From contig NZ_AXAZ01000030.1 in assembly GCF_000473065.1 (NCBI RefSeq), forward strand, positions 1-64,000: a stretch of DNA of 64,000 nucleotides, in the 5' to 3' direction. Made by a program: the position numbers and the translations under genes. The stretch comes from Bradyrhizobium sp. WSM1743. Lineage in GTDB: Bacteria > Pseudomonadota > Alphaproteobacteria > Rhizobiales > Xanthobacteraceae. Shown here one piece after another: positions 49,834 to 64,000 of the stretch (position 1 is the first letter of the stretch; the number at the start of each line of letters is the position of its first letter). Under the pieces are notes generated by a model, which had not been told where the DNA came from, searched no databases, and saw only the letters and a program-made list of their open reading frames with translations.

Positions 49834-49935
49834 GGCGGGAGCGTGTGGCAGGGAAAGCGGGCCTTATCAAGCCTCATTTGGTGATTGCGGAGCCCTTCGG
49901 CCAGCCCCATATCGGCGCTTGGATATATCAGCCCT

Positions 49936-49989
49936 GGGGAGGACGGCCTCCCCCGTCCATCAGTACATCAGCCGCGGGGACGACCCTGC
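49936..49989 (+). ncRNA. Guanidine-II (mini-ykkC) riboswitch
   Basis: Two hairpins with ACGR loops: GGGGAGG-ACGG-CCTCCCC (49936-49953, 7 perfect pairs) and GCGGGG-ACGA-CCCTGC (49974-49989, 6 pairs with one G-U), 20 bases apart. This is the defining pattern of the guanidine-II class. The ribosome site GGAG (49997-50000) of a SugE/Gdx guanidinium exporter follows 7 bases later. Guanidine binding pairs the two loops and frees translation. Found by eye; a covariance search would settle it. Confidence 0.88.
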
Positions 49990-61815: not shown

Positions 61816-62529
61816 TCAAAAATTGATCTCCATTCGCAATCCGCGCGGATCGATCTCCTCGCCGCCGACACGCTGCGTGCTGTCGCGTGCCGCAATCGCA
61901 CAGGCGCAGGCATCAATGAGATCATCGCGGCCGATGCCCGTGCCGTGACGCTGCGTCAACCATTTCGGCAGACGCGTGAAACCGCGCTGCTCCAGCAGCG
62001 CAATGCGCTGCTGGAGACCGTGCGCCGACGTCTTCCTTGCGAGACGGACCCGCCCTGCGAGATTCCAGAAGATCAACTCCGGATGCGCTTCGCCGATCAC
62101 CGCCTGCCGCATTGGCGTCATGACGTCGTCGACCTCTCTCATCTTGCCCCTGATATTCCAGAGCTGCGCCGAGACACCCCTGCCCTTGCCTTCGTGCTCC
62201 CAGTAATGGCGATTGGCCGCAGCCATGTCGGAAAACGTCCAGAGATCGCGGCGTGCACCGAGAAACACGGCGGGGCCGATCAGGTCGCGCGCACGCAGAT
62301 CGCAAGCGCGATAGCCGCTCGGATCCAGTCCGATCGGCATGTCGATCATCGCGCGTGCGTGCGGGATTGCGAGCAGGCGCATCAAGCCCGGCGAATAGTC
62401 GAAGCCGTGATCGCCGCGCTCGTCGATCCAGGCCGCGACCCAGCCGAAGCGAAATCCGTCGAGACCGAGATAGTTTGGCACGTCGTTCGTCTGTCCCTTT
62501 GCGATTTTCACACGCGCCTCGCTTGACAT
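61816..62529 (-). CDS. DUF429 protein (predicted RNase H-like nuclease)
   Basis: 237 residues from MSSEARVKIAKGQTNDVPNY (ATG 62529); the frame runs on but loses family resemblance. YLGLDGFRFGWVAAWID and MIDMPIGL are the DUF429 motifs with conserved Asp residues, VIGEAHPELIFW and HGTGIGRDDLIDACACAIAARD complete it. The fold is RNase H-like, so a nuclease is predicted; activity is untested. Its start codon overlaps a divergent promoter for a candidate small RNA. Confidence 0.9.
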   Translation of the reverse strand: MSSEARVKIAKGQTNDVPNYLGLDGFRFGWVAAWIDERGDHGFDYSPGLMRLLAIPHARAMIDMPIGLDPSGYRACDLRARDLIGPAVFLGARRDLWTFSDMAAANRHYWEHEGKGRGVSAQLWNIRGKMREVDDVMTPMRQAVIGEAHPELIFWNLAGRVRLARKTSAHGLQQRIALLEQRGFTRLPKWLTQRHGTGIGRDDLIDACACAIAARDSTQRVGGEEIDPRGLRMEINF

Positions 62530-62551
62530 CCGCAAGTTGCGGGCGTATGTC
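62523..62551 (+). promoter_or_regulatory. Sigma-70 type promoter for a candidate small RNA
   Basis: TTGACA (62523-62528), 17 bases, TATGTC (62546-62551). A consensus -35 with ideal spacing and a partial -10, reading away from DUF429 toward a terminator about 200 bases downstream with no convincing gene between. Confidence 0.5.
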
Positions 62552-62557
62552 CCGCGC

Positions 62558-62754
62558 CCTCGCGAACACGTCCGTCCGCTAAAACGATGAACCGAATGAT
62601 GAAGCACCGCTACGAAAGATTTGCGCATCTGTCGAATGGCCTTCGGCCAGTCGATGGCGCATGCCCGGCTCATGGGAGCGATCTTGCCTGACCGCAAGAT
62701 CGACAGTCCGCTTCTCACGGACCCTCCCGAGCCTGCCGCTCCGGAGGGTTTTTT
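62558..62754 (+). ncRNA. Candidate small RNA (about 197 bases)
   Basis: Between the promoter above and a strong terminator. Predicted structure: a hairpin centred on TGGCC-TTC-GGCCA within GCGC (62623-62626) and GCGC (62657-62660); CGATCTTGC (62679-62687) with GCAAGATCG (62694-62702), 9 perfect pairs; then the terminator ACCCTCC/GGAGGGT. A 34-codon frame from 62588 is present but not convincing. Identity unknown; it may be an independent regulator or belong with the Y RNA locus that follows. Confidence 0.5.
62721..62754 (+). terminator. Intrinsic terminator of the candidate small RNA
   Basis: ACCCTCC (62721-62727) pairs with GGAGGGT (62743-62749), extended inside by GAG/CTC after one C-C mismatch, followed by TTTTTT (62749-62754). 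A textbook Rho-independent terminator on the plus strand. Confidence 0.85.
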
Positions 62755-63029
62755 GTTGCCCGCCGCGCGGCCCATTCGAACATCCCGGCAATGGCCGGAA
62801 CGGGAGACCCGGATCCCGGGGCTCGCGCTGGAGAGGCGCGTGCCCAAGTGCGCGGGGCCTGCCGGAGGGAACGAGGCGATGAGCCGGACACCGATGGCAG
62901 AGCGAACCCGAATGGTTCGCAAGGTGCGGCGCGTCGACAGCGCCGCGATAGAATTTTCTTGAAGTTGATTTGCCGCGATGATCGCGGCTAACCGACGCTG
63001 GTTAGCGACCGATGCACAAACATCGGCCT
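62755..63029 (+). other. Leader region of the Y RNA array with three clustered hairpins
   Basis: No recognised gene. Just before the first RNA unit there are GCCGCGAT/ATCGCGGC (62972-62988), GCTAACC/GGTTAGC (62987-62993 with 63000-63006) and CCGATG/CATCGG (63009-63014 with 63021-63026). The first two share two bases, so they may be alternatives. I found no clear sigma-54 site, which drives the rtc-rsr locus in Salmonella, nor a clear sigma-70 site. Confidence 0.45.
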
Positions 63030-63173
63030 GGCGGTGGTGAAGATGTCTGTTACTTCGGATAGAGCGCCGTCCTGGCTTGCAGAACGGAGGTCGCGGGTTC
63101 GTCTCCCGCCGGCTGAAATGCCGTAGCTCAGTTTGCCTGACACGGGCAGCAACAGCATCGATCGTTCCCCGCC
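63030..63173 (+). ncRNA. Y RNA-like unit 1 (YrlA type, tRNA-like core opened in the D loop)
   Basis: Outer stem GGCGG (63030-63034) with CCGCC (63169-63173). Conserved outer blocks TGGTGAAGA and CTGTTACTTCG on the 5' side, ACAG..TCG and GTTCC on the 3' side, shared with units 2 and 3. The core reads as a permuted tRNA: GAGC (63062-63065), anticodon-like arm CCGT/ACGG (63067-63087), AGGTC, T arm GCGGG-TTCGTCT-CCCGC (63093-63109), acceptor CGGC/GCCG capped by TGAAAT (63110-63123), TA, GCTC (63126-63129), which would pair back with GAGC. The outer helices thus leave from the D loop. Confidence 0.8.
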
Positions 63174-63181
63174 AACCCAAT

Positions 63182-63341
63182 CACGATCCGTGGTGAAGAT
63201 ATCTGTTACTTCGCCTGCAACGCGAGAGGTCGCGGGTTCGAATCCCGCCCGGTGTACCATGCACCGGTAGCTCAGAGGATAGAGCGCTTTCCGGCAAGCT
63301 TGCGCTTGCCGGGTCACAGAATCGCCTGTTCCCGGATCGTG
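63182..63341 (+). ncRNA. Y RNA-like unit 2 (YrlA type, permuted tRNA with ACCA)
   Basis: Outer stem CACGATCCG (63182-63190) with CGGATCGTG (63333-63341), 9 perfect pairs. Same conserved blocks as unit 1. Core: GAGAG, T arm GCGGG-TTCGAAT-CCCGC (63232-63248), acceptor 3' strand CCGGTGT, then ACCA and one T, then acceptor 5' strand GCACCGG (63261-63267), TA, complete D arm GCTC-AGAGGATA-GAGC (63270-63285), CTTTC pairing with GAGAG. This is a tRNA permuted at the anticodon, with discriminator and CCA still encoded in the acceptor loop. Hairpin CCGGCAAGC/GCTTGCCGG follows. Confidence 0.85.
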
Positions 63342-63355
63342 TCCCCTTAGCCACC

Positions 63356-63489
63356 GCCGGTGGTGAAGAGCGCTGTTACTTCGGATCGCAATGTCGAAGG
63401 TTCGACTCCTTCCGGACGAAAGTCCGTAGCTCAGCGGTAGAGCATGTGACTTGCCCGCAAGGGCAGTACAGCCTCGCTTGTTCCCCGGC
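63356..63489 (+). ncRNA. Y RNA-like unit 3 (YrlA type, tetraloop-capped acceptor)
   Basis: Outer stem GCCGG (63356-63360) with CCGGC (63485-63489). Same conserved blocks. Core: TCGCA, T arm GAAGG-TTCGACT-CCTTC (63396-63412), acceptor CGGAC capped by GAAA with GTCCG (63413-63426), TA, complete D arm GCTC-AGCGGTA-GAGC (63429-63443), TGTGA pairing with TCGCA. Then hairpin TGCCC-GCAA-GGGCA. The GNRA caps and full D and T arms match the tRNA-mimicking module of bacterial Y RNAs. The rsr start codon is 40 bases past its end. Confidence 0.87.
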
Positions 63490-63528
63490 ACCCCATTCCA
63501 CTTCCCATCAAACCAAGAGGAGGCCGTC

Positions 63529-64000
63529 ATGGTCAGGCTCAACAAGATCGCTCGCGCCTTCACGCGGGAGGGCGCGCGCGCAGTCCGCTTCACGCCCGAG
63601 ACGGAGCTGAAGCGGGCGCTGATGAACTGCCTCCTGTGGGAGGACCAGTTCTACGAGGACGGCGTCTCCATCGCAGACCGCATCAAGGCGCTGGTGCCGA
63701 AGGTCACTCCCGCGCGCGTCGCGCAGCTTGCGATCGAGGCGCGCGAAGTGATGAAGCTGCGGCACGCGCCGCTGCTCGTCATCCGCGAGATGGCGCGCAA
63801 CGAGAAGCACCGCGCCCTCGTCGCCGACACGCTCGCGCAGGTGATCCAGCGTCCCGACGAGATGACGGAACTGCTCGCGATCTACTGGGCGGATGCGCTC
63901 GGGCCTCAGCAGCAGCGCAAGCGTCAGCCGGTCTCGGCGCAGGTGAAGAAGGGCCTTGCCCGCGCCCTGACCAAGTTCGACGCCTATCAGCTCGCCAAGT
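63529..64000 (+). CDS. rsr: TROVE-domain Ro60 protein, N-terminal part (runs off the window)
   Basis: ATG 63529 follows AGAGGAGG. 157 residues are visible, open to the last base: KIARAFTREGARAVRFTPETELKRALMNCLLWEDQFYEDG, RIKALVPKVTPARVAQLAIEAREVMKLRHAPLLVIREMARNEKHRALVADTLAQVIQRPDEMTELLAIYW and QPVSAQVKKGLARALTKFDAYQLAK. These are the HEAT-like repeats of the TROVE ring, as in Rsr of Deinococcus and human Ro60. The ring holds Y RNA on its outside and 3' ends of misfolded RNA inside, and partners with PNPase in bacteria. The three RNA units just upstream are its expected ligands. Confidence 0.93.
   Translation, partial: MVRLNKIARAFTREGARAVRFTPETELKRALMNCLLWEDQFYEDGVSIADRIKALVPKVTPARVAQLAIEAREVMKLRHAPLLVIREMARNEKHRALVADTLAQVIQRPDEMTELLAIYWADALGPQQQRKRQPVSAQVKKGLARALTKFDAYQLAK

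Follow-up and report, generated by a model that had tools for sequence, protein, structure and literature searches.

Candidate Y RNAs with different tRNA-like heads arrayed upstream of rsr in Bradyrhizobium sp. WSM1743

The array upstream of rsr

The stretch analyzed here, called the window, comprises 64,000 nucleotides of Bradyrhizobium sp. WSM1743 (contig NZ_AXAZ01000030.1, positions 1 to 64,000 of the forward strand; assembly GCF_000473065.1). Near its end, three non-identical tandem units (63030-63490) lie immediately upstream of, and on the same strand as, rsr, a gene for a Ro60-like protein with TROVE and vWA domains. A preliminary description had read these units, from the letters of the DNA alone, as tandem tRNA-mimicking Y RNAs beside a Ro60-like gene; this is supported by the results below, and rtcB also lies next to the gene. 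The three units are very probably Y RNAs, of three different architectures rather than copies of one YrlA design (Table 1), and one of them appears to keep a tRNA-type anticodon arm.

The sequence motifs ascribed to the units were recovered in the same order in all three. An outer-stem signature is common to them, with GTGGTGAAGA...GTTACTTCG on the 5' side and ACAG..TCG..GTTCCC on the 3' side, together with a T-arm-like core, and two direct-repeat families have three copies each: D1 at 63032, 63188 and 63358 (29 nt; copies two and three match the first at 86% and 90% identity) and D2, the T arm, at 63087, 63226 and 63390 (86% and 69%). The permuted arm order thought to be shared by all units is present in units 2 and 3 (T arm, capped acceptor, D arm) but not in unit 1, where the D-arm halves stand at opposite ends of the core. 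As had been stated, the TROVE gene begins about 40 nt after unit 3, with an ATG at 63529.

A YrlA covariance search, proposed earlier as a check, gave a divided answer. YrlA (RF02553) is the best Rfam family on units 2 and 3 (39.9 bits, E = 2.6e-7, and 37.5 bits, E = 1.2e-6; 611 bases searched) and matches only part of unit 1 (21.2 bits, E = 0.065), but the gathering score of 69 bits is reached by none of the three, and the array has no match at the gathering threshold. ARAGORN detected no tRNA genes in the window, which together with the permuted arm order rules out ordinary tRNA genes; a chance repeat is ruled out by the three-copy repeats, the matches in genomes of the genus and the pair counts of units 1 and 2.

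Unit 2 and its anticodon arm

Unit 2 can be read as an entire tRNA cloverleaf in circular permutation, in which the Y stem is predicted to enter between tRNA positions 26 and 27 and the anticodon arm to be left exposed. The helices predicted for it appear in its unconstrained minimum-energy fold, which adds one acceptor pair, and when the unit is joined by hand in tRNA order ARAGORN calls it tRNA-Cys(GCA). An alignment of 35 units of this type has 95.7% of cells paired over 42 pairs, and 18 pairs are changed on both sides, mostly in the acceptor, the extra hairpin and the Y stem. None of 500 shuffles scored as high and slid structures gave 33-46%, the latter comparison being biased against the slid versions because the scored structure was taken from one aligned sequence. 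These 35 units also show a conserved Y stem with covariation at its two outermost pairs; pair 31-39 of the anticodon stem occurs as A-U in 14 sequences, C-G in 12, U-A in seven and G-C in one.

For wider tests a motif scan provided 390 units, of which 328 were distinct after removal of extra copies from the window genome, N-containing units and identical units. ARAGORN on rotated, doubled units called 168 of the 259 that entered this test (of the window units, only unit 2), against 0, 1 and 0 when the whole interior was shuffled, but it still called 158, 153 and 155 when the arm segment alone was shuffled. These calls are independent of the arm and were therefore dropped as proof of it, and direct arm tests were used instead. 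A fully paired (5/5-bp) 17-nt arm directly before a short variable loop was found in 56 of the 226 distinct units with a T arm, against 7.7 expected by shuffling; U33 is present in 51 of these arms, A37 in 49 and a 5-nt variable loop in 51. When the arm was anchored on the Y motif (274 anchorable units) and four inner pairs, U33 and a purine at 37 were required, 60 of 225 T-arm units passed (0.81 expected), as did 7 of 49 units without a T arm (0.17 expected).

Site rates were obtained on the rsr tree for 49 related unit-2 sequences, which are not independent events (three of the 52 Bradyrhizobium-clade loci gave no unit 2, and the first of two candidates was taken in loci L078 and L079). U33 is found in 49/49 with no change and A37 in 48/49 with one change; positions 34, 35 and 36 have 13, 16 and 16 changes, with all four bases seen there. 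Variation is limited to C or T at position 32 and to C or A at 38. No change is seen at positions 28-30 or 40-43, at U33 or G19, or in the TTCGA T loop, and further tRNA-like positions are held (G18 47/49, G19 49/49, A14, G15 48/49, A21, U8, A9). What varies are three D-loop positions, the CCA and the acceptor loop, and the acceptor stem hardly changes. With L076 and L078-L081 left out, whose array position is uncertain, the remaining 44 sequences have 0 changes at U33, 1 at A37 and 11, 13 and 13 at positions 34-36. Hairpin tips change equally often (13-18 changes), so drift is possible and positive selection on the triplet is not claimed. We do claim for the unit-2 family, from these patterns, a kept anticodon-loop frame with an apparently unconstrained or diversified triplet.

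The tRNA-Cys(GCA) call, the ACCA before G1 and the adjacent rtcB would also fit permuted tRNA genes, the RNA of which is cut and religated by the neighboring RtcB into working tRNAs. Against this, the CCA and acceptor loop vary among the 49 relatives, the anticodon changes and the acceptor stem is almost constant, and the window genome already has a normal tRNA-Cys(GCA); we regard such an origin of tRNAs as very improbable.

Compared with the tRNAs of the window genome, 35 un-permuted type-2 heads are closest to tRNA-Asn(GUU) in 21 cases and otherwise to Arg-CCG (6), Met (3), Asp (2), Ala (1), Leu (1) or Phe (1), with three ties broken by name; the head of unit 2 itself is closest to Arg-CCG (34 vs 33 for Asn). 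This likeness to tRNA-Asn, the YrlA matches of units 2 and 3 below the gathering score, and the RYPER complex, in which a Y RNA tethers Rsr to PNPase (PMC8394870, in the text available), favor conventional YrlA-type adapters between Rsr and PNPase, with the anticodon arm as an idle remnant of a copied tRNA. An idle hairpin should, however, lose U33, A37, the 7-nt loop and the 5-nt variable loop, and these features are largely kept in the 49 relatives and in phages, and the arm stands alone in short units. We consider an idle arm possible but unlikely.

The short units are little more than a Y stem and an anticodon arm and occupy the place of unit 1 in several Bradyrhizobium loci (L053, L062, L108 and L109, about -440 to -410 from rsr; L059, about -515). 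Two arm-only loops, CTCGAAA and CTTTTAA, equal those of tRNA-Ser(CGA) and tRNA-Lys(UUU) in the window genome; the short units of L108 and L109 lack a purine at 37. Copying of the arms from host tRNA genes is not claimed, since just 6 of the 23 distinct loops match a tRNA loop of the window genome exactly.

Units 1 and 3

Unit 1 may, with less certainty, be a tRNA fold opened in the D loop in which a closed hairpin replaces the anticodon loop. This type is represented by 16 distinct units from Bradyrhizobium and from metagenome-assembled genomes of Hyphomonadaceae or other alphaproteobacteria (L085, L094, L102, L107); 96.5% of cells in their alignment are paired, with 10 double-changed pairs, against 36-58% in slid controls. 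The hairpin in place of the anticodon arm has 9-10 bp in near relatives, and the window copy contains a mismatch and is one base shorter than that of L010. The one argument for the D stem is that its halves co-occur, which shared descent also favors: among 39 loci, 10 have both halves, 26 have neither and 3 are mixed (7 of 46 loci with two candidate units were excluded, and the mixed rows L044 and L048 look like other units). The 5' part is closest to tRNA-Asp(GUC) among the window-genome tRNAs in 11 of the 16.

Many unit-1 relatives are without the D arm, or also without the T arm, which, with the tRNA-like letters, could suggest functionless tRNA-gene debris. Debris is disfavored by the covariation, that is, by compensatory changes in units 1 and 2, and array DNA is matched in 79 of the 265 genomes of the genus (E <= 0.001; a few over short stretches only) and the same units occur in phages, so we find it hardly credible.

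The head of unit 3 is YrlA-like, with the known layout of that RNA as judged from model matches. Two models of our own were used here, R1 for the unit-2 (anticodon-arm) class and R2 for the D-loop class; R1 gives unit 3 44.9 bits vs 100.8 for unit 2, and unit 3 is without an anticodon arm of the unit-2 kind.

Table 1. Predicted features of the array and its surroundings (window coordinates)
Feature	Position	Strand	Remarks
Scar of lost fourth "long" Y unit (probable)	62995..63007	+	Outermost bases only (ACGCTGG|TTAGCG); read by eye beside L037
Unit 1, Y RNA read as tRNA cloverleaf opened in D loop	63030..63173	+	16 units, pair counts
Unit 1 Y stem strands	about 63031-63050 and 63152-63172	+	
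Unit 1 D-stem 3' half	63062-63065	+	GAGC, within D-arm 3' half GATAGAGC
Unit 1 closed hairpin, anticodon-stem-like	63067-63087	+	
Unit 1 T arm	63093-63109	+	Preceded by 5-nt AGGTC
Unit 1 capped acceptor hairpin	63110-63123	+	4 bp
Unit 1 D-stem 5' half	63126-63129	+	GCTC, within TAGCTCAG
Unit 2, Y RNA with complete circularly permuted tRNA cloverleaf	63187..63335	+	Pair counts, fold, ARAGORN, site rates
Unit 2 Y stem	63187-63209 / 63316-63335	+	
Unit 2 anticodon arm	63210-63226	+	5 bp, 7-nt loop
Unit 2 anticodon loop	63215..63221	+	CTGCAAC (C32 U33 G34 C35 A36 A37 C38); arm tests, rates on rsr tree
Unit 2 variable loop	63227-63231	+	5 nt
Unit 2 T arm	63232-63248	+	
Unit 2 capped acceptor	63249-63267	+	...ACCA+T+G1...; 7 bp, strands joined by short loop
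Unit 2 U8 A9	63268-63269	+	
Unit 2 D arm	63270-63285	+	
Unit 2 position 26	63286	+	
Unit 2 extra hairpin	63291-63312	+	
Unit 3, YrlA-like Y RNA with extra hairpin and Y stem	63356..63490	+	Rfam YrlA 37.5 bits
Unit 3 T arm	63396-63412	+	
Unit 3 acceptor hairpin	63413-63426	+	
Unit 3 D arm	63429-63443	+	
rsr start (TROVE + vWA, Ro60-like)	63529..64000	+	Pfam; end 64854 in contig, beyond window

Arrays in related bacteria

Locus counts were made on 80 related TROVE loci, the best of 106 found by a search with the rsr protein. Units were counted within 1500 nt upstream of the TROVE open reading frame, or less where the contig ends (a few loci), and their type and number are rule-based calls, without shuffle control or hand check; those of the D-loop type in L092 and L112, for example, may be errors. 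Loci with 0, 1, 2, 3, 4, 5, 6 and 7 units number 2, 4, 2, 9, 49, 10, 2 and 2. At least three units thus occur in 72 of the 80 loci, with four the commonest number, so arrays are normal here, contrary to the initial impression that three tandem copies are unusual. The same RNA classes adjoin TROVE genes in other Alphaproteobacteria.

Most Bradyrhizobium loci have four units by rule, and the window is without the first, often "long", one. A fourth, longer unit, still present in many relatives, was apparently lost from the strain; its probable remains are listed in Table 1. This "long" Y unit, of about 170-180 nt, has a T arm followed by a conserved domain and stands first or second in the arrays of L036, L059, L085, L087, L107 and others. 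A consensus fold from 20 sequences has 29 pairs, 13 of them with double changes; against Rfam, the six loci scanned gave only a weak sub-threshold tmRNA fragment (L087).

The position of the array directly upstream of rsr, on the same strand and with no terminator found between, could also be that of a structured 5' leader that regulates rsr in cis as a tRNA-like riboregulator. The loci mostly have three to seven units, however, each with a closing stem of its own, as in known Y RNAs, and unit number and type vary between loci; a cis-acting leader is therefore quite improbable.

Class-wide searches at E <= 1e-5 matched R1 in 81 of 385 genomes and R2 in 57 of 289. These counts were not used as evidence because several matches, which are unsorted, lie in tandem steps of ~115-128 bases or in long spans, as neighboring tRNA genes give; in the window genome, a third R1 match overlaps a tRNA-Asn gene.

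Phage and plasmid relatives

Phages and a Deinococcus gobiensis plasmid also carry TROVE genes, which are 47-57% identical and are preceded by a similar Y motif (upstream sequence inspected in 10 of 12 phage and plasmid loci, L215 and L216 being left out). The Y motif was not seen upstream in the Microcystis phage or the crAss-like phage, and the array of the Rhizobium phage has a different-looking motif. No rtcB is annotated within the 2-3 kb flanks of the phage TROVE loci.

The anticodon-arm class stands beside TROVE in Caulobacter, Brevundimonas and Xanthomonas phages, with R1 scores of 66-74 bits (Kikimora, Gurke, Olaya, 10KY502B, CcrPW, CcrColossus). The loop is CTGCTAA in Kikimora and Gurke, CTGTTAA in Olaya and CTTGTAA in 10KY502B, and the arm units of 10KY502B and Olaya are each the last in their own array; between the last units of two Xanthomonas phage arrays the anticodon is switched, Asn-GUU against Thr-UGU. 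CcrPW and CcrColossus have CTGTTAA in common, and ATTAGGA in one stands against ATCTGGA in the other; the switch between two Caulobacter phages is Leu-UAG vs Gln-CUG.

Depositors have annotated tRNAs inside phage array units at L208:2766-2840 and L215:1766-1840 (tRNA-Ser), L217:1759-1826 (tRNA-Thr) and L214:1128-1195 (tRNA-Gln), and all four resemble permuted Y RNAs. The units at L209:2637-2900, L210:2807-2897 and L090:264-414 have D arms of the Leu or Leu/Ser type, e.g. TGGCGGAA..GGTAGACGC, and those of other phage units are of Glu and Gln type, from which one array seems to copy several tRNA families. Upstream of the 57%-identical TROVE gene of the Deinococcus gobiensis plasmid (L206:2750-2960) are two units with a similar motif, of which one is YrlA-like and the other has no T arm.

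An anticodon loop that keeps its form while its letters are swapped, in bacteria and between close phages, could point to heads that form a decoy and sensor repertoire against anticodon nucleases of phage-defense or colicin-like type, each unit mimicking a tRNA under attack, with cut RNA captured by Rsr, RtcB repairing it or being induced, and the phage copies serving counter-defense. The arm-only units, two loops of which are identical to those of Ser-CGA and Lys-UUU of the window genome, and the rtcB that adjoins rsr are in keeping with this. The candidate nuclease is hypothetical, however, only 6 of 23 loops equal a tRNA loop of the window genome, drift is possible, and some loops read AUC or ACC, which are not usual anticodons. 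The parts of the literature available to us bear on both sides: inhibition of an anticodon nuclease by the tRNA-like domain of YrlA, possibly as a competitor, has been suggested (PMC7790460) and phage tRNAs that evade anticodon nucleases have been described (PMC11455837), but in S. Typhimurium YrlA fragments were undetected when tRNAs were cut (PMC7790460). We consider a decoy and sensor role possible but unlikely.

The rsr and rtcB genes

Reading past position 64000, as had been advised, completed the TROVE gene, with a product of 441 aa, and located rtcB about 110 nt downstream, outside the window. The product scores 52 bits with Pfam TROVE (cut-off 23) and 21.2 bits with Pfam vWA_Ro60, under the cut-off of 27.7. 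It is a TROVE protein outside the narrow Rsr equivalog, the NCBIfam model RNA-bind_Rsr giving 19.2 bits where 900 are required; RtcB likewise falls far under its NCBIfam equivalog cut-off. The nearest solved chains in the Protein Data Bank, 9l5y_A and 9kop_A (E about 4e-27), are named only "TROVE domain-containing protein", and the closest relatives of the window rsr are from Bradyrhizobium strains.

Elsewhere in the window, a Guanidine-II riboswitch (RF01068) was detected at 49935-49988 (+) with 33.3 bits, above the gathering score of 32.

Proposed role of the array

The explanation that we consider probable is that the array encodes three Y RNAs with one handle for Rsr, the Y stem, and different tRNA-like heads, which act as Rsr-tethered adapters or baits for tRNA-handling enzymes. 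Supported from sequence are the predicted folds (strongest for unit 2), their conservation, the place beside rsr and rtcB, and an anticodon that appears variable in a fixed loop frame. The three RNAs would be transcribed from the 460 bases upstream of rsr, and their common Y stem presumably binds Rsr. The heads would offer different tRNA faces and could thereby recruit or occupy PNPase, RtcB, modification enzymes or anticodon nucleases; such recruitment might be part of tRNA-damage surveillance, and through the array a single kind of Rsr ring might gain several heads. To judge from the preserved U33/A37 frame and from the arm-only units, one or more of the partners may read the anticodon arm.

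Apart from the biased slid control, the arm-independent ARAGORN calls, the fast-changing hairpin tips and the shared descent of the sequences, several results weigh against this explanation. In unit 2, one pair in the upper Y stem does not hold in 21 of 31 cells, and in the anticodon stem double changes occur at 31-39 only, the other four pairs hardly varying and pair 27-43 being U-G or unpaired. In unit 1 the D stem is invariant, and the window copy lacks it when folded at minimum energy, GAGC being paired elsewhere; the minimum-energy fold of unit 3 has a shifted T-arm pairing, unlike the T arm of YrlA. The Y stem sequence of the Rfam YrlA model differs from that seen here, and the equivalog score marks Rsr as divergent. 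A consensus scan of 62500-63560 found no sigma-70 promoter or terminator, and R2 gave no convincing unit in the phages (best score 47.6 bits, on annotated tRNA genes; all others <=34.6).

An anticodon arm in a Y RNA would offer a way into what these RNAs do apart from tethering Rsr to PNPase. The mimicry of YrlA, which has D, T and acceptor arms, might be taken for a docking shape; a canonical anticodon arm in which U33 and A37 are held and the triplet is free points to enzymes that read the anticodon arm, a role that becomes testable with defined arm, triplet and U33 mutants. Such a Y RNA would also explain the tRNA annotations inside four phage arrays, and R1 and R2 provide models for Rsr-associated RNAs that are missed at the Rfam gathering score. 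A broader scheme, which we put forward as speculative and rather doubtful, sees Ro60-associated Y RNA arrays as repertoires of ring-tethered tRNA look-alikes, some with a genuine anticodon arm and others stripped down to that arm, whose anticodons track nuclease-attacked tRNAs, with bacteria using them to sense damage and repair it with RtcB and phages carrying sets for counter-defense.

Comparison with known systems

Circularly permuted tRNA genes are found in red algae and archaea, with the tRNA halves reversed and, in some, a break in the D loop. The units described here are like them in the reversed halves; they differ in that the break carries a Y stem, the CCA is not conserved and the anticodon is untied from the acceptor.

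The closest counterpart is YrlA (RF02553; structure 6CU1), described as a circular permutation of tRNA in the accessible part of PMC11472068 and as carrying D, T and acceptor arms and tRNA modifications in that of PMC8394870. Like YrlA, the units stand beside rsr and have a terminal stem, and the permuted T arm, capped acceptor and D arm are found in units 2 and 3 by model match, and in unit 2 also by pair counts; in unit 1 the D arm is split. The tail stem of YrlA replaces the anticodon arm, as is true of unit 3, whereas unit 2 has a separate conserved anticodon arm. Also unlike YrlA, the Y stem of unit 2 is placed at 26/27 and unit 1 reads as opened in the D loop. We file the units as a variant form of bacterial Y RNA rather than as strict YrlA, since all three score under the gathering threshold and unit 2 also keeps its anticodon arm. 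Our literature search turned up neither a bacterial Y RNA described with an anticodon arm nor complete-cloverleaf, D-loop-opened or arm-only Y RNAs, but key Y RNA papers lie outside it, and Chen 2014, Sim and Wolin 2018, Wang 2018 and Burroughs and Aravind 2016 may hold parts of this.

The rsr-yrlBA-rtcBA RNA repair operon of Salmonella, which responds to damaged tRNA according to the available text of PMC7790460, likewise brings together a TROVE gene, Y RNAs and rtcB. In the loci studied here, by contrast, the Y RNAs lie upstream of rsr and usually number at least three, and Rsr and RtcB score far under the NCBIfam equivalog cut-offs.

The phage TROVE arrays share the same Y motif in Caulobacter and Xanthomonas phages and a similar one in Brevundimonas phages, together with permuted heads and the anticodon-arm class; they differ from the Bradyrhizobium array in size, with about eight units in CcrPW, and in their Leu-, Glu- and Gln-type D arms.

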